This document shows positions 1 to 6,822 of a stretch of 8,370 nucleotides of DNA, piece by piece. The DNA lies in contig JACZVB010000044.1 of the NCBI GenBank assembly GCA_022572865.1, positions 1 through 8,370 of the forward strand. Reading direction: 5' to 3'. Origin of the DNA: Chloroflexota bacterium (lineage in GTDB: Bacteria; Chloroflexota; Dehalococcoidia; Plut-88900). Position 1 is the stretch's first letter; every line of letters starts with the position of its first letter. The notes below the pieces were generated by a model. The model did no database searches. It had not been told where the DNA came from and worked only from the letters and a program-made list of their open reading frames with translations. The position numbers and the translations under genes were made by a program.

Positions 1-1471
1 GATGACCGGACTGATAACGGTAACGGTGCCCTTCGCCTTCGCCATGGGTGCATTGTTGGCGGGCAGGACGGGGGACGATTGGGTCGATACCGGGCGCACC
101 TGGGCACTGATCTCCTGGGGCATTCTGGGCACGGGGTTGCTCCTGGGAGGGTGGTGGGCCTACACCATCCTCGGCTGGGGCGGCTTCTGGGCCTGGGACC
201 CGGTGGAGAACGCAGGCCTCATGCCCTGGCTGGTCTTGACCGCCTTCATCCACTCCATCATGGTCCAGAAACGCAGGGGTATGTTTCGGGTATGGAACAT
301 CGCCCTGATCAACGTAGCCTTCACCTCTGCCCTTCTGGGAATGTTCATCAACAGGGGAGGCCCAACGCCCTCGGTCCACTCCTTCGCGCAGTCGATTCTG
401 GGTTGGGTGTTTCTGGCCTTCATGGCGGTCACCGCCCTCTTCTCCTTCGGACTTATGGTCCACCGTATGCCGGCCCTGAAAAACTCCCAGAGCCTGGAGT
501 CCAAACTGTCCCGGGAGACGGCTTTCCTGGTCAATAACGTCCTCTTTCTCGCCATGGCCTTCGTCATCATCTGGGGCCAGCTCTTCCCGATAATCTCAGA
601 CATGGTGACAGGCGTCTCCATTACCGTAGGAGAACCGTTCTACAACCGGGTGAACGGCCCCCTGCTCCTGGCGGTGATATTTCTCATGGGAATCGGCCCC
701 ATGATCCCCTGGAGGCACGCTTCCCTGGCCCAGCTGCGTAAAGCTCTTCTGTTGCCTCTCCTGGTGGCCCTGGGCCTGGACTTGACGCTTCTAGGGCTGG
801 GAGTGACAAAGGTATTTCCCTTGATGGCCTTTGGCCTGTGCGCCATGGTGGGCACGGGCATCCTCCGGGAATGGACCCGGGGGACCAGGGCCCGTCACCG
901 AAAGGGAGAGAGCTATCCGTTGGCCTTCTGCAAACTGCTTGCTGCCAACAGACCCCGATACGGGGGATACGTGGTGCACCTGGCCGTGGTGATGATGGCC
1001 CTGGCCATCATCGGCACTTACTTCTTCGATACTCAGCGGGACGTAGTGCTGTCACCCGGAGAGCAGGTGACCGTAGGGGGTTACCAGATCACCTATATCG
1101 ATGCCCAGCAAATCCAGCATCCGGACCACCTCCAGTCGGTGGCCACGGTGGTGGTGGAAAGAGACGGCAAATCCCTGGGCACCTATTCACCCTGGCAGGA
1201 CTTCTATCCAAGCTTCAGCCTGAGGCCGGCTCGGGCCGCCATCAGGTCCACCCCTATAGAGGACCTCTACATCATCCCCAACGACTTTTTCCAGGACGGC
1301 AGCGTAGGCTTCCGCATTCTGATAAACCCCCTGGTGATGTGGATGTGGATCGCCGGGCCGGTCCTGGTCCTGGGAACCGTTATCGCCCTATGGCCCCAGC
1401 GGAAGCGGGCCCTCACCCGAGAAGCTATCCCACAGGTTCTTCGCCCCACCTACGCCCCGGCTGTGGAGTGA
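1..1471 (+). CDS. ccmF: Cytochrome c haem lyase subunit CcmF (5'-truncated by window edge)
   Basis: CcmF is the polytopic membrane core of the System I cytochrome c synthetase, moving haem from CcmE to apocytochrome c on the outer face of the membrane. The first whole codon is at 2; 489 residues are visible against roughly 650 for the family. The ATG at 2 lies within a transmembrane stretch matching the middle of CcmF, so the gene starts outside the window. The WWD domain lies at visible residues 50-76 (GGWWAYTILGWGGFWAWDP then ENAGLMPW). Expected haem-ligand histidines are all present: H84 (TAFIHS) and H126 (PTPSVHSF) flanking the WWD site, and H326 (YGGYVVHLA) in the second pair; the fourth would be upstream. 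A periplasmic soluble segment (about residues 345-435) precedes a last membrane helix (about 445-465). The stop is 13 nt before the next gene, which indicates one operon. Identification is secure. Confidence 0.96.
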   Translation, partial: MTGLITVTVPFAFAMGALLAGRTGDDWVDTGRTWALISWGILGTGLLLGGWWAYTILGWGGFWAWDPVENAGLMPWLVLTAFIHSIMVQKRRGMFRVWNIALINVAFTSALLGMFINRGGPTPSVHSFAQSILGWVFLAFMAVTALFSFGLMVHRMPALKNSQSLESKLSRETAFLVNNVLFLAMAFVIIWGQLFPIISDMVTGVSITVGEPFYNRVNGPLLLAVIFLMGIGPMIPWRHASLAQLRKALLLPLLVALGLDLTLLGLGVTKVFPLMAFGLCAMVGTGILREWTRGTRARHRKGESYPLAFCKLLAANRPRYGGYVVHLAVVMMALAIIGTYFFDTQRDVVLSPGEQVTVGGYQITYIDAQQIQHPDHLQSVATVVVERDGKSLGTYSPWQDFYPSFSLRPARAAIRSTPIEDLYIIPNDFFQDGSVGFRILINPLVMWMWIAGPVLVLGTVIALWPQRKRALTREAIPQVLRPTYAPAVE

Positions 1472-1484: not shown

Positions 1485-1952
1485 TTGGTTATCGCCATCG
1501 GCATTCTACTTTCCTTAGTGTGCCTGGTCATCGTGGCCATCCCCTTCCTCAGGCACAGGCACTCCCTACAGCCGGTCAACCCACTGGATATGATCGAAGA
1601 GCTTGCTCGTGGCCGCCAGCAGATCTACCAGGAGCTTATGACCCTGAAAGAGAGCCACCAGTTGGGCAACGTCCCGGAGGCCGAGTTCCAGGCCCTATCC
1701 ATGAACCTGAGAAGGAGAGCGGCGGAGAACCTGTGGTTGCAGAAGCGATGGGAAGAGCGGCTAGACTCCCTGGACGAAGCCATAGAGGGACAGGTGCTGG
1801 CCTTACGCGAGGCGATAAAGGAACGGACCCGGACCGTGACCTGTCCCGAGTGCGATGCTGCGGCTCCAGCCACCGAGTCCAGCTGCCCGGTCTGCGGGAC
1901 GCCCCTGACGCCCCGCCAAGCTGTATTGTCTGGCCGGGGAGAGGCAGGGTGA
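1485..1952 (+). CDS. CcmI-like membrane protein with coiled coil and C-terminal zinc ribbon
   Basis: 155 residues from a TTG start. Residues 2-21 form one membrane helix (VIAIGILLSLVCLVIVAIPF) followed by RHRH, so by the positive-inside rule the rest is cytosolic. Residues 30-110 are a charged helical/coiled-coil region with the pattern seen at the N-terminal end of CcmI proteins (GNVPEAEFQALSMNLRRRAAENL is similar to the usual G-x-L-x-E-E-x-E-x-x-R-x-E-L-x-R-R-L; shown here in pieces: GNVPEAEF, then LRRRAAENL). C120/C123 and C134/C137 form a CPEC...CPVCG double-knuckle zinc ribbon. CcmI normally chaperones apocytochromes to CcmF/CcmH through a periplasmic TPR domain; no TPR is present here. 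The position directly after ccmF supports a role in haem ligation, but the exact job is inferred. The stop overlaps the next start (GTGA at 1949-1952). Confidence 0.85.
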   Translation: MVIAIGILLSLVCLVIVAIPFLRHRHSLQPVNPLDMIEELARGRQQIYQELMTLKESHQLGNVPEAEFQALSMNLRRRAAENLWLQKRWEERLDSLDEAIEGQVLALREAIKERTRTVTCPECDAAAPATESSCPVCGTPLTPRQAVLSGRGEAG

Positions 1953-3166
1953 AAAGAGCCTTTCTGCTGCCTGTGCTGGCCCTGGTCCTGGGTCTGGGGG
2001 TGCTGGCCCTGGGCCCGTCGCAGGCTTCAGCCGACTCTCACGATCTCGTCGAAGGACAGGTGACCAACAGTACTCCGGGAGCGACGGTCCCCATCGACCT
2101 CGGGGTGATTCTCATCGTCTTTCAGGGCGATGCCTCCATCGATCAGTTCATCACCTTTACGGATTCAGAGGGCGGGTTCAGATTCGGCAATGTGCCCCTG
2201 GGCCCAGGCCTCACTTACGTAGTCAGCGTCGAGCACCAGGGGGCTATTTACCAGGCCGAGGCATCCCCCGGCCCGGGCGCGTCCACCGGCCTGGAGATAT
2301 ACGAAAGCTCCTCTTTGGACGAGTCTATAGTGGTGCTGGACGACACCATAATGCTGACCCGTGGCGATGATGAGTTCGCCGAGCTGCTGGTCCGACAGGT
2401 GGTCCGGGTCCGCAACGATGGACAGCGCACCTTCGTCCCCGCCTTTGGAGAAGACGGCCAGGGGGTCATGAGTTTCCTTCGTTTCTCCCTGCCCATCGGG
2501 TATCAGGACCTGACCGTGAGAAGCGACCTCCTGGGCGGCCAAATCATACCAATCGATCGGGGGGTGGGTATAACCGCGCCCCTCCCCCCGGGCATACACG
2601 CCCTGGTGCTGGCCTATACAGTGCCCTACGAAGGGACAACTCTGGTCTTCGAGCCGTTGTATCCCTTCGGTGCGGAGCTGGTCAGGGTACTCATCAGGGA
2701 GGACGTGGGAAGGCTCATAGGGTCAGACCTGGTGGAGAAGGCCCCCATCAGCGTGAGCGGCAACGATTTCAAGGTATACGAAATATCGGACATAGCCGCG
2801 GAAGATAGGGTAACCCTCGGCTTCACAGACCTGCCCCAGGCCTCCTGGGCCCAGCGGGTGTGGAACGCCATCAGCAACGAGTGGGAGCTGACCATGGTGA
2901 TACCCGGAGTTACGGCGATTTTGTTGCTGGTCCTGTTGGCCTACGCCTGGAGGCTCCGCCACCGAAGGCCCCAGGCCGTGGCCCCTGAGACCCTCACCAA
3001 GAATATTCAGCGGCAGCCCGCTCAGTTAAAGCTGGTGGAAGCCATAGCCCGGCTGGACGAGGAGATGAGTCAGGGAGAGGTCTCAGAGGAAGAGTACGAA
3101 GCCCAGCGTCTGGACCTGAAGCAGGCCCTCATGAGGCTGGCCCTAAGAGACGCTAGGTCTGTGTGA
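1949..3166 (+). CDS. Secreted-domain, membrane-anchored protein of unknown function with CcmI-like tail
   Basis: 405 residues from GTG 1949, which overlaps the previous stop as GTGA and follows GAGAGG at 1939-1944. The frame stays open further upstream, but only in the shadow of the zinc-ribbon gene. Residues 1-28 are a clear signal peptide (KRAFLLPVLAL... ending ASA before D29). Residues about 33-95 resemble a carboxypeptidase-regulatory-like beta-sandwich (VEGQVTNSTPG, then DSEGGFRFGNVPLGPG). Residues about 100-310 look like further extracytoplasmic beta structure. A single membrane helix lies at about 314-338, followed by RLRHRR, placing the tail inside. Residues about 360-400 form a helical hairpin with QGEVSEEEYEAQRLDLK, similar to the CcmI/SHOCT-type pattern and to the preceding protein. 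I do not recognise a named family for the whole. Location suggests a partner of CcmF on the outer face, perhaps holding apocytochrome; that is inference. Confidence 0.88.
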   Translation: MKRAFLLPVLALVLGLGVLALGPSQASADSHDLVEGQVTNSTPGATVPIDLGVILIVFQGDASIDQFITFTDSEGGFRFGNVPLGPGLTYVVSVEHQGAIYQAEASPGPGASTGLEIYESSSLDESIVVLDDTIMLTRGDDEFAELLVRQVVRVRNDGQRTFVPAFGEDGQGVMSFLRFSLPIGYQDLTVRSDLLGGQIIPIDRGVGITAPLPPGIHALVLAYTVPYEGTTLVFEPLYPFGAELVRVLIREDVGRLIGSDLVEKAPISVSGNDFKVYEISDIAAEDRVTLGFTDLPQASWAQRVWNAISNEWELTMVIPGVTAILLLVLLAYAWRLRHRRPQAVAPETLTKNIQRQPAQLKLVEAIARLDEEMSQGEVSEEEYEAQRLDLKQALMRLALRDARSV

Positions 3167-3214: not shown

Positions 3215-3739
3215 TTGTGGGACCTATTCGATATTCTGAATGTAGCAGTTCGTTGGATCCACGCGGCCTCCGCCGTGCTGTGGATAGGAGGGAGCATCTT
3301 CTTTCTGGTTGCCCTCAGACCCGCATTGCGAGATGCAGAAAAGAGAGAACCTTCAATAAGCAGGCTCATACCGTCCCTGGTGACGGCCCACTTCCGAGAG
3401 TGGGTCCACCTGAGCATGGTGGCGCTCCTGATCAGCGGGGCCATCCTGACCTTCGACAGGCTGACGGAACCTTCCACCTCGCCGGCCTACGTCGGGACGC
3501 TGGTCGCCAAGATCGCGTTATCCTTCTGGCTCTTTGCAATAGGCACCGCTACCTACAGGAAAAAGGTGATAGAGCGAGCGGCCGTCGAGGAGCGCGTGGG
3601 AACGGGTCGAAGCGATACCAGCAGCCTTTACCGGTGGCTCAGGCCCCTGGCCTCGCCTTCGATGGTAGTGTATGGCGGCCTCGTAGTGGTGCTGCTCAGC
3701 GACATCCTGAAGATAGTCTTCGAAAAGGGCATATCCTAA
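3215..3739 (+). CDS. CopD-like four-helix integral membrane protein
   Basis: 174 residues with four predicted membrane helices at about 8-34, 64-82, 90-111 and 148-166. The first helix, VRWIHAASAVLWIGGSIFF, and the third, YVGTLVAKIALSFWL, are typical of CopD/YcnJ-type and related small membrane proteins. H16, H59 and H65 could bind a metal or haem. The start is chosen as TTG 3215 because conserved sequence begins a few codons later; the frame opens after a stop at 3188-3190, offering only CTG 3197 as an alternative, and no strong ribosome binding site is visible. The ATG at 3193 is in another frame. The 48-nt gap after the previous gene fits the same operon. CopD proteins are linked to copper passage, and copper is needed by haem-copper oxidases, but function here is open. 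Confidence 0.82.
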   Translation: MWDLFDILNVAVRWIHAASAVLWIGGSIFFLVALRPALRDAEKREPSISRLIPSLVTAHFREWVHLSMVALLISGAILTFDRLTEPSTSPAYVGTLVAKIALSFWLFAIGTATYRKKVIERAAVEERVGTGRSDTSSLYRWLRPLASPSMVVYGGLVVVLLSDILKIVFEKGIS

Positions 3740-3953: not shown

Positions 3954-4688
3954 GTGACGGCAATCACCAACGGAAGCAATGGGAAAATACCTGTGGAACA
4001 CCCAGCCATAGAGGCACGGGGCCTTAGCCGTAGCTATGGGCGGGTGAAGGCCATATCAAACCTGGGACTAACCATCGCCCCTGGCGAGAAGGTGGTGCTC
4101 ATAGGGCCCAACGGCTCAGGGAAGACCACTCTCATCAAGCTCCTCTCCACACTTATAAGACCCACCTCCGGCACGCTGAAACTCTTCGGCAAAGACACCG
4201 CCTCCCATGGGGCCCAGCTCAGGCGAAGGGTGGGCGTCCTCCTCCACGAACCGTTGCTCTACAACCGCCTGACCGCCCTGGAGAACCTGCAGTTCTACTC
4301 CAAGATGTTTAACGTCCCCAACGAAGACCAGCGGATATGGGAGCTGGCAGAGGAGATGGAGATAGGCGGCCTCCTCAAGACCAGGGTGGATTCCCTCTCT
4401 CACGGCCAGCGAAAACGGGTGTCGATCCTACGAGCCTTGCTCCACGATCCCTCCATCCTCCTTCTGGACGAGCCCGATGCGGGCCTGGACCAGACCGCAG
4501 TCCAAGGGCTGGTGAAGCTGGTCTCACGAAACGGCAGGACGGTGGTCATGTCTACCCACAATCTGGAGAGCGGCCTCAGTATGGCGCAGCGGGTGATAGT
4601 CCTCAAGAAGGGGAAAGTGATCATGGACGTGGACAGGGAGGTCCTGGACCGGGCCGACCTGGGGTATGAGGCCCTGGTAACGGGATGA
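3954..4688 (+). CDS. ccmA: Haem exporter ABC ATPase CcmA
   Basis: CcmA is the cytosolic ATPase of the CcmABCD complex; ATP hydrolysis releases haem-loaded CcmE from CcmC. 244 residues with a complete nucleotide-binding domain: Walker A GPNGSGKT (51-58, K57), CcmA-type Q-loop region GVLLHEPLLYNRLTALENL, signature LSHGQ (148-152), Walker B ILLLDEP (168-174, E173), D-loop GLD (177-179) and switch H202. It is followed by ccmB with only a 10-nt gap, which excludes most other ABC ATPase types. The start is uncertain. GTG 3954 gives a 17-residue N-terminal extension (rich in N, G, S) and no ribosome binding site; GTG 3993, preceded by GGGAAA at 3981-3986, gives a start (VEHPAIEARGLSRSYG) closer to the usual family beginning. 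The promoter at 3919-3947 is compatible with either. Confidence 0.93.
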   Translation: MTAITNGSNGKIPVEHPAIEARGLSRSYGRVKAISNLGLTIAPGEKVVLIGPNGSGKTTLIKLLSTLIRPTSGTLKLFGKDTASHGAQLRRRVGVLLHEPLLYNRLTALENLQFYSKMFNVPNEDQRIWELAEEMEIGGLLKTRVDSLSHGQRKRVSILRALLHDPSILLLDEPDAGLDQTAVQGLVKLVSRNGRTVVMSTHNLESGLSMAQRVIVLKKGKVIMDVDREVLDRADLGYEALVTG

Positions 4689-4698
4689 GGGTGTAGAA

Positions 4699-5370
4699 GT
4701 GTCTTACTGGCGGTCGGTTGCGACCATAGTTCGGAAAGACCTCCTGGTCGAGTTGCGGGGCAAGGAGATAATCCTCTCCGTAAGCTTCTTCGTTTTCCTG
4801 ATGGTCTTCATCTTCAACTTCGCCTTCAAGCCCGGCACGATTCCCCTGGAGGTGATGACCCCCGGGGTCCTGTGGTTCACCTTCCTGTTCGCCGGGATGC
4901 TCAGCTTCCAGCGGGTGGTCTCCACCGAACAGGAGAACGGCTGCCTCGATGGGCTGATGCTGTGCCCCCACGGCAGGGACGTAATATTCGTCTCCAAGAC
5001 CATCAGCAGCTTCCTCTTCGTCCTGGCGGTCGAGGTGATATCACTGCCCTTCTTCGCCGTGGTCTTCAACCTATCGTTTTTCCCAGTCGAGCTGTTGCTG
5101 ATCATTCCCCTGGCTACCCTGGGGATATCTATAATTGGGACCCTCCTTGCGGCCCTCTCCATGAACACCCGGCTCCGAGAGGTGATGCTGCCCATTCTGC
5201 TGATACCCCTGGTGGTCCCGGTGGTCATCGCCGCCGTAGAATCGACCGGCAATGCCCTGAGCGGGGAGGGCTGGGCAGCCGTTCAGCCCTGGATTTGGGT
5301 CATGGTGATATTCGACATAGTCTTCCTGGTCATCGGCCTGCTCACCTTCGAGCATGTCATCGAGGAATAA
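4699..5370 (+). CDS. ccmB: Haem exporter membrane subunit CcmB
   Basis: CcmB is the membrane partner of CcmA in the CcmABCD complex. 223 residues, the usual length for the family, with about six membrane helices (about 22-42, 52-72, 98-120, 124-150, 158-180 and 193-216). Family features are visible: the N-terminal amphipathic segment VRKDLLVELRGKE, then F-A-G-M-L-S-F-Q-R with EQENGCLDGLML on the cytosolic side, and RLREVMLPILLIPLVVPVV in the second half. The GTG start is preceded by GAGGG at 4687-4691, 7 nt away and overlapping the ccmA stop, so translation is probably coupled to ccmA. The next gene begins 9 nt after the stop. Confidence 0.95.
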   Translation: MSYWRSVATIVRKDLLVELRGKEIILSVSFFVFLMVFIFNFAFKPGTIPLEVMTPGVLWFTFLFAGMLSFQRVVSTEQENGCLDGLMLCPHGRDVIFVSKTISSFLFVLAVEVISLPFFAVVFNLSFFPVELLLIIPLATLGISIIGTLLAALSMNTRLREVMLPILLIPLVVPVVIAAVESTGNALSGEGWAAVQPWIWVMVIFDIVFLVIGLLTFEHVIEE

Positions 5371-5379
5371 GGGCCTGAG

Positions 5380-6114
5380 ATGAACGAAGCCAAGCCGATA
5401 AAGGCCGAGTCCACCAGATCGATCATGCCCAGGCTCACCTGGCTGGATGGGCTTTTCTGGGTCACCGCCGTCGCCATCTTCGTAGACCTCTACCTGATCT
5501 TCCTCTGGGTGCCCAAGGAGGCAATTCAGGGCAACGTGCAGCGGATCTTCTACTTTCACGTGCCCGCCGCCTGGATAGCCTATCTAGCCTTCTTCCTGGT
5601 GTTCCTGTTCGGCATCTTTCATCTTCGGACCAGGAAGCCCAGGTGGGACCACTACGCATATTCAGCGGCGGAGCTCGGGGTGGTGTTCACCTCGGTCACC
5701 CTCGTCACCGGCATAATCTGGGCCAAGCCAATCTTCGGGGTATGGTGGGTTTGGGACGCCAGGCTAACCACCACGGCCCTCCTCTGGCTCGTCTACGTAG
5801 GATACCTGATGGTGGGAGCATATGCCGTCAGCGAGGATAAGGCCTCACGCCTCAGGTCTGCGGTGGGTATCCTCGGCTTCGCCGTGGTGCCCATAAACTT
5901 CCTATCCGTTAGCCTCTGGGACACGGTCCACATCGAGCCTGTAGTGGCCGGTGATGATGCTCTCCTCAACGCTGATATGAAGTTCACTCTATTCTTTAGC
6001 CTGGCCACCTTTACCGCTCTCTTTATCTTCCTGCTGGTCGTCAGGATCATGCTGAGGGAGAGCGAGGCGGCCGTGGAGGAGCTGGACCAGGAAGTAGAAG
6101 CGGCGCAGAGTTGA
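5380..6114 (+). CDS. ccmC: Haem-handling membrane protein CcmC
   Basis: CcmC binds haem at the outer membrane face and loads it onto CcmE. 244 residues with six membrane helices. The WWD motif lies at 114-126 (WAKPIFGVWWVWD, then ARLT). The two haem-ligand histidines are H60 (FYFHVPAAW) and H184 (WDTVHIEP); these fall at the same numbers as in E. coli CcmC, showing a near-canonical spacing. The C-terminal tail after about residue 225 is acidic and helical. The ATG follows the ccmB stop by 9 nt, with GGG/GAG as a modest ribosome binding site. All residues needed for haem loading onto CcmE are visible, which makes the altered CcmE downstream more striking. Confidence 0.96.
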   Translation: MNEAKPIKAESTRSIMPRLTWLDGLFWVTAVAIFVDLYLIFLWVPKEAIQGNVQRIFYFHVPAAWIAYLAFFLVFLFGIFHLRTRKPRWDHYAYSAAELGVVFTSVTLVTGIIWAKPIFGVWWVWDARLTTTALLWLVYVGYLMVGAYAVSEDKASRLRSAVGILGFAVVPINFLSVSLWDTVHIEPVVAGDDALLNADMKFTLFFSLATFTALFIFLLVVRIMLRESEAAVEELDQEVEAAQS

Positions 6115-6200: not shown

Positions 6201-6356
6201 ATGGAAGACAATTTCGGGTATCTGTTAGCAGGTTTCAGCATAGGATGGGCGTTGTTCATGGGCCTGGCCTACTGGACCTACCGGAAGGTGATGAGGGTCC
6301 GGCAGGACATCGACGATCTGAAACGGGCCAGGAACCCCCGCCCCGAGGATGGCTGA
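6201..6356 (+). CDS. ccmD: Small CcmD-like membrane protein
   Basis: A 51-codon gene with a short aromatic N-terminus (MEDNFGYL), one membrane helix at about residues 7-26 (LLAGFSIGWALFMGLAYW) and a basic, charged cytosolic tail (YRKVMRVRQDIDDLKRAR). This matches CcmD, the small subunit needed to release haem-loaded CcmE from CcmABC, in size, topology (N-out, C-in) and position between ccmC and ccmE. CcmD is poorly conserved, so the name rests on these traits rather than sequence identity. ATG 6201 is the only ATG/GTG/TTG start in frame after a stop at 6174-6176; no ribosome binding site is obvious. Its end overlaps the ccmE start by 8 nt (6349-6356), pointing to translational coupling. Confidence 0.78.
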   Translation: MEDNFGYLLAGFSIGWALFMGLAYWTYRKVMRVRQDIDDLKRARNPRPEDG

Positions 6357-6822
6357 CCGAGATATGGCTGGAGAGCAGCAGGTCGACGCGGCCATCGAGG
6401 TCTACAATCCCTGGCTCACCCCCAGGAAGAAGCTGATCGCCGGCGGCATCGTGCTGGCGGTGGCCTTCGCATCCATCATCTACGTCGTCACCGTGAACAC
6501 GGGCCAGTTCTTCCTGGACGTCAGCGAGGTGCAGCAGAAGGGGTCTCTCCTATTTGGCAAGGATATCAGGGTCAACGGGATCGTGGTGCCCGGCTCCATC
6601 GTCTATGGAGAGGAAAAGGGCGTCTCCTTCCAGGTCCTGGATACCAAGAAGAAGTCCGGCCCGCCCCTGGATGTGGTCTTTCCGGGAGTGCCACCGGGGC
6701 AGTTCGACGTGCCTTCCGTGGAGGTGGTCCTGGAGGGACGGCTGGAGGCGGACAAGGTTTTCCACCTAACCAGCATCATCACCCGGGAGTCTCGTAAGTA
6801 CATCCCCATCACAGAAGAGTGA
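6349..6822 (+). CDS. ccmE: Divergent haem chaperone CcmE lacking the haem-binding His/Cys
   Basis: CcmE carries haem from CcmC to CcmF on the outer face of the membrane. 157 residues: a short cytosolic N-terminus (1-28), one membrane anchor (29-49), then an OB-fold domain (about 50-145) with family features YVVTVNTGQFF, VRVNG-like DIRVNGIVVPGSI, VSFQVLD, and VVFPGVPPGQF followed by VVLEGRL. At the C-terminal end the usual L-A-K-H-D-E-N-Y (E. coli) or A-K-C-P-S-K-Y (CXXXY type) is ITRESRKY: the covalent haem residue is replaced by E147, while Y151 is kept. The only histidine is H139 (VFHLTS), eight residues earlier, and there is no cysteine. The segment PDLFREG is changed to PGQFDVP. The ATG lies inside the ccmD end; ATG 6364 (M6) is an alternative. 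Family assignment by fold pattern and context is strong; haem-binding chemistry is uncertain. Confidence 0.9.
   Translation: MADRDMAGEQQVDAAIEVYNPWLTPRKKLIAGGIVLAVAFASIIYVVTVNTGQFFLDVSEVQQKGSLLFGKDIRVNGIVVPGSIVYGEEKGVSFQVLDTKKKSGPPLDVVFPGVPPGQFDVPSVEVVLEGRLEADKVFHLTSIITRESRKYIPITEE

Follow-up and report, generated by a model that had tools for sequence, protein, structure and literature searches.

An old puzzle of System I is that CcmE bonds haem covalently and that this bond is then broken again. Two types of CcmE are distinguished by the residue that makes the bond, the HXXXY type, represented in E. coli by H130 and Y134 (residue names as in PMC6204919), and the CXXXY type of System I*. In E. 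coli, changing this His to Ala is reported to stop cytochrome c formation (PMC3601427). Exchange of His for Cys, or of Cys for His, is described as tolerated by neither type in the systems tested (PMC3601427, PMC9084895). One review terms the CcmE His essential, yet notes that some systems have Cys instead and that neither tolerates the switch (PMC3601427). For an archaeal CcmE, a C120H variant is reported as not detected, and the same paper describes the CXXXY motif as necessary for attaching haem (PMC9084895). The E. coli H130A protein still binds haem non-covalently in vitro; this haem is placed close to R149, far along the C-terminus, and hardly touches residues 130-133, and no haem pocket is described on the core of either apo- or holo-CcmE (PMC6204919). 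In E. coli, attachment of haem to CcmE reportedly involves oxidation of the haem (PMC12077264). The literature searched, which left subscription papers mostly outside, names only the His and Cys types and contains no report of a CcmE with Glu at this position.

A CcmE of that kind is encoded in a stretch of 8,370 nucleotides of Chloroflexota DNA, here called the window, as the last gene of a System I operon. The features of the operon are as follows.

2..1471, plus strand: ccmF, cut by the window start (PF16327, 198.5 bits; a full-length relative on the orthologous contig L033 was aligned to CcmF 6zmq_A)
1485..1952, plus strand: small membrane protein with a zinc ribbon and a weakly CcmI-like N-terminus (TIGR03142, 20.4 bits, below its cut-off of 29.3; zinc-ribbon matches also below cut-off)
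3954..4688, plus strand: ccmA-type ABC ATPase (PF00005, 121.7 bits; TIGR01189 for ccmA, 127.4 bits, just below its cut-off of 131.6; place in the operon)
4699..5370, plus strand: ccmB (PF03379, 114.7 bits)
5380..6114, plus strand: ccmC (PF01578, 98.9 bits; alignment to E. coli CcmC 7f02_C)
6201..6356, plus strand: ccmD-like open reading frame between ccmC and ccmE (51 amino acids, one hydrophobic stretch and a basic tail; named from position and make-up, with no Pfam or NCBIfam match)
6349..6822, plus strand: ccmE of the Glu type (PF03100, 57.2 bits against a cut-off of 24.6; best PDB match of its model is CcmE 8ce8_E)
6763..6765, plus strand: H139, the sole His of this CcmE, not fixed in its clade
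6781..6807, plus strand: TRESRKYIP motif, in which E147 replaces E. coli H130 and Y151 corresponds to Y134

The plus strand also encodes a zinc-type alcohol dehydrogenase, listed after ccmE. Two further proteins lie between ccmF and ccmA, and both recur on L033. The one at 1952-3166 has a beta-rich start, a hydrophobic stretch near its C-terminus and no Pfam or NCBIfam match, and the other, at 3215-3739, is a CopD-like membrane protein that scores below the Pfam cut-off.

By Pfam profile, fold and operon the window protein belongs to CcmE; it lacks the His or Cys of the family and fails the NCBIfam cut-offs. Six NCBIfam CcmE models match it, each below equivalog level (best NF009727, 61 bits against 126). 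An AlphaFold2 model built from 54 rows (mean pLDDT 80.5, pTM 0.62) has the expected membrane helix (residues 25-50) followed by an OB barrel, whose last strand spans 138-146, and a loose, low-confidence tail. Its best Foldseek match (E 4e-7, TM 0.54) is 8ce8_E, a CcmE chain from the CcmABCDE complex of E. coli, and CcmE structures also hold ranks 2, 4, 5 and 6; most of the 45 chains that pass E 0.001 are other OB-fold proteins.

The open reading frame at 6349-6822 (plus strand) ends in ...FHLTSIITRESRKYIPITEE. Translation probably starts at M6 (codon 6364), because 19 of 20 full-length relatives begin there, and the Glu site would then be E142. A profile of the group aligns with E. coli CcmE (8ce8_E, 1sr3_A) without a gap across the motif and places E147 (GAG, 6787-6789) on H130 and Y151 (6799-6801) on Y134. 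This bears out the preliminary description of the window, which had put Glu at the haem-bonding column with Tyr kept at +4. The same description gave the protein no Cys and a single His, and a residue count agrees.

Like the HXXXY proteins, the window CcmE has an N-terminal membrane helix, an OB barrel, a tail that aligns without gaps and a Tyr at +4, and it is encoded together with ccmA, B, C, F and H. It differs in having Glu for the haem-bonding His and in its shorter tail, which ends at the equivalent of about E. coli residue 140; the stretch that holds E. coli R149 is absent. In E. coli, R73, D101 and E105 are contact residues, and the window protein has Y86, G117 and P122 in their places; these columns differ in the Glu type but are also variable among Cys and His types. 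With the CXXXY proteins of System I*, which mostly read CPSKY and occur in archaea, Desulfovibrio and 183 of 256 distinct Chloroflexota sequences, it shares the family, the operon type and the replacement of His, but it has no Cys, and E-S-R stands in place of C-P-S. CcmH is present in G001, a related 2.4 Mb draft genome, whereas it is missing in archaea; about a third of Cys-type bacteria are reported to have it as well (PMC3601427).

The Glu motif is fixed in the relatives of the window protein. A first homologue search returned 22 proteins, which with the window make 23 rows, and TRESR-x-Y stands in all 22 rows that hold the motif, window included; the remaining row, P0023, is frameshifted ahead of the motif. 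Alignment at the Glu column, proposed as a check when the residue was first noticed, thus gave TRESR throughout, and Cys is absent from all 22 of these sequences. A profile search added a fragment (P0024) that carries the motif, a truncated protein (P0025) and a mosaic (P0026), and the next five matches, at 43 to 49 bits, are all His or Cys types. The motif also stands in L001, a GenBank assembly sequence from a related genome, whose CcmE is 97% identical to that of the window and uses the same GAG codon. Between these two orthologues there are 13 synonymous and 5 non-synonymous changes, for a dN/dS of 0.12 in this one pair.

Among 22 long members (the window, 20 database proteins and L001), pairwise identity falls as low as 50%. 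T145, R146, E147, S148, R149, Y151 and P153 are nevertheless invariant in all 22, so that Glu fills the haem-bonding position and Tyr the +4 position in every one. The fixed tail reads TRESR[K/Q/R]Y[I/V]P, and its conservation is among the highest in the protein. His or Cys at this column in the relatives would have pointed to an error in the window, but every clade member that holds the column has Glu.

A tree was built from 119 other CcmE proteins and the 12 Glu types kept after thinning, on 92 columns with residue 146 onward removed, and in it the Glu types form one clade with an SH-aLRT of 100. The branches around it mix Cys and His types, with supports of 73 to 85 from the 92 columns. Glu may derive from either type, and the tree does not decide between them.

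The sole His of the window protein had been put forward as a substitute attachment residue, a suggestion that the clade does not uphold. At the column of H139, 20 of 22 members have His, P0011 has Tyr and P0021 has Gln. H139 was rejected as a shared attachment residue on this basis and because P0011 has no His anywhere. None of the alignments made moved H139, or any residue other than E147, into the canonical site, and His occurs at the same column in 16 of 101 Cys-type proteins. Since P0011 contains neither His nor Cys at any position, its composition excludes His- or Cys-based attachment for this protein outright and, if the members work alike, for the whole clade.

The genes around the Glu-type ccmE are those of System I. 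CcmC keeps H60 (5557), H184 (5929) and the WWVWD motif (5743) in alignment with E. coli CcmC 7f02_C. CcmF has three His in the window (251, 377 and 977) and a WWD region, and the fourth His, which lies upstream of the window, is kept in the full-length relative on L033 when compared with 6zmq_A. We take these CcmF His to be haem-binding, and with that assignment the earlier statement that CcmC and CcmF keep their haem-ligand residues holds. On L033 the gene order is molybdopterin and Fe-S subunits, two NrfD-like proteins (one by Pfam, one by eye), ActD, a CSMCH cytochrome c, a CcmH with a CPVC motif and CcmF, followed by the same order as in the window through to CcmE. We read this arrangement as a cluster for alternative complex III with System I behind it. 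The co-encoded set thus comprises ccmA, B, C, D, F and H, with ccmH and complete ccmF taken from L033 and ccmD assigned by position only.

The draft G001 contains one CcmE and one CcmH, and its PF01578 matches are CcmC and CcmF only. Neither ResB of System II nor a second ccmE, which would have spoken against a third class of CcmE, was found in this draft, the one related genome searched. G001 also has five Cytochrome_CBB3 matches; every one lies on an open reading frame with CXXCH, and one resembles CoxB by eye.

Given the kept operon, the kept CcmC and CcmF residues, and the lack of a ResB or second CcmE match in the draft G001, the Glu-type protein is probably a working CcmE that is unable to use a His or Cys bond. 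Glu cannot make the known vinyl-His or vinyl-Cys bonds. We tentatively favour non-covalent carriage, in which Y151 would ligate the iron; a Glu-haem ester is the bolder alternative. The bonding His or Cys would have been replaced once by Glu, in one Chloroflexota clade and within a new fixed tail. On the outer face, CcmE would receive haem from CcmC and hold it with neither of the two vinyl bonds. Most likely the haem would be bound non-covalently, with Y151 on the iron, while R146, E147 and R149 would contact either the propionates or CcmC and CcmF as partners. The haem would then move on to CcmF-CcmH and be attached to CXXCH, and this lineage could do without a covalent CcmE-haem intermediate.

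Several observations argue for a working CcmE with non-covalent carriage. They include the invariant motif, its confinement to a single clade, the dN/dS of 0.12 and the composition of P0011. They also include the clustering of ccmH, F, A, B, C, a ccmD-like frame and ccmE downstream of a CSMCH cytochrome and the genes for alternative complex III, the gene content of G001, and the haem still held by E. coli H130A (PMC6204919). Against it, E. coli fails to form cytochrome c once this His is changed to Ala, and His and Cys are not swappable in the systems tested (PMC3601427, PMC9084895). The haem of H130A is reported near R149 (PMC6204919), in the stretch that the window CcmE lacks. A strictly fixed Glu is equally expected if Glu made the bond, and G001, the sole genome behind the single CcmE, is a draft.

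The alternative that takes the fixed Glu most literally is that the E147 carboxylate forms an ester with a vinyl or methyl carbon of haem, as a labile covalent intermediate. This would place Glu exactly at the attachment column, as is found in 22 of 22 members, but we regard it as unlikely. Haem esters of peroxidases form in an enclosed site. Asp/Glu-haem esters are described for lactoperoxidase, eosinophil peroxidase and myeloperoxidase and proposed for peroxidasin, but these peroxidase esters sit at haem methyls and form autocatalytically (PMC5377774). The likeness to lactoperoxidase and myeloperoxidase is chemical only, one of carboxylate-haem bonds in unrelated proteins. The haem oxidation reported for attachment in E. 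coli (PMC12077264) might favour ester chemistry, but the core of E. coli CcmE, as described, offers no haem pocket (PMC6204919). No paper in the literature searched combines CcmE, heme and 'ester bond'.

A further alternative is that a different protein, either a second CcmE or another carrier missed in draft assemblies, delivers haem while the Glu-type CcmE serves as a scaffold. The draft state of G001 leaves room for this, and two or three CcmE matches do occur in some genomes of the class. We regard this as improbable, as G001 has one CcmE beside the only CcmC and CcmF found, and few parts of the protein are as conserved as the tail motif. It is more doubtful still that another CcmE residue bonds haem covalently, whether Y151, S148 or, where present, H139. 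R146, S148, R149 and Y151 are invariant, but H139 is missing in two of 22 members, P0011 is devoid of both His and Cys, and no CcmE bonded through Tyr, Ser or Lys was met in the literature searched.

Loss of the known bonding residue might also mean that System I serves another purpose or is decaying, with the site no longer needed. This is very improbable beside the dN/dS of 0.12 between two orthologues, the invariant replacement motif, the kept CcmC and CcmF residues and, in the draft G001, CXXCH proteins without a ResB match. A sequencing or assembly error at 6787-6789, conceivable when Glu had been noticed in a single window, is ruled out by the same residue in 21 homologues and in the assembly sequence L001, and the substitution is genuine.

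The preliminary description had raised a possible third class of CcmE. At the attachment column such a class exists, with Glu fixed in one clade. Probably it is also a third class in the way haem is held, either through a labile Glu-haem ester or in a System I without any covalent CcmE-haem intermediate. A conserved natural CcmE that lacks His and Cys at the site means either that System I can do without the covalent intermediate or that the bond can be made by a carboxylate, and P0011, with neither amino acid anywhere, sharpens this choice. The conserved Glu of this uncultured Chloroflexota group suggests haem carriage of a kind not yet described, and a Glu-haem ester, if true, would be a new kind of covalent haem-chaperone bond.

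Glu-type CcmE is rare among the Chloroflexota sequences examined. Among 256 distinct Chloroflexota CcmE sequences, 252 have Cys or His (183 and 69), one has Glu and three have no assignable residue. In the class, a Pfam CcmE match occurs in 151 of 393 genomes, of which 143 were examined and eight left out, and G001 alone among these 143 has the Glu type. The class set of 149 distinct open reading frames comprises 101 Cys, 44 His, one Glu (L001), one truncated (L057) and two odd copies ending in CXXCH; a looser alignment of this set scored these two as Cys, and in the count of 256 they are not assignable. The phylum search matched 149 of 400 genomes, with G001 at 276 bits and the next genome at 75.5 bits. 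From 110 loci examined, it added 107 distinct proteins (82 Cys and 25 His), and together with the class set it covers 114 of the 149 genomes. No open reading frame of either set is contained in another. The order-level set consists of G001 only, and the search for further Glu-type genomes among relatives gave 1 of 294 at E 1e-25; the class, order, phylum and relatives draws overlap. A broad protein search supplied the best 120 of 7993 matches, mostly near copies. Among the matches listed from this and the profile search together, the 126 proteins P0024-P0149 comprise 110 with His, 13 with Cys, one with Glu (P0024) and two without the motif (P0025 and P0026).

The survey also brought out variation among the other CcmE types. 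In the 44 His-type proteins of the class (loci L034-L141), the +4 residue is Phe in 40, Met in four and Tyr in none, and HXXXF is thus the rule there. The two copies ending in CXXCH are additional CcmE-like proteins in the drafts G365 and G009 (L061:5998-6411 and L044:5324-5734, both minus strand), with the tails FCSVCH and LCKTCHPGG, respectively, in place of CPSKY. Each adjoins a small membrane protein (by eye), and L061 has a P-type-ATPase-like open reading frame with CASC motifs nearby. CcmE open reading frames of 236 amino acids occur at L044:14358-15065 (minus strand) and L045:324-1031 (plus strand), and the former appears by eye to carry an extra OB-like stretch ahead of the usual domain.
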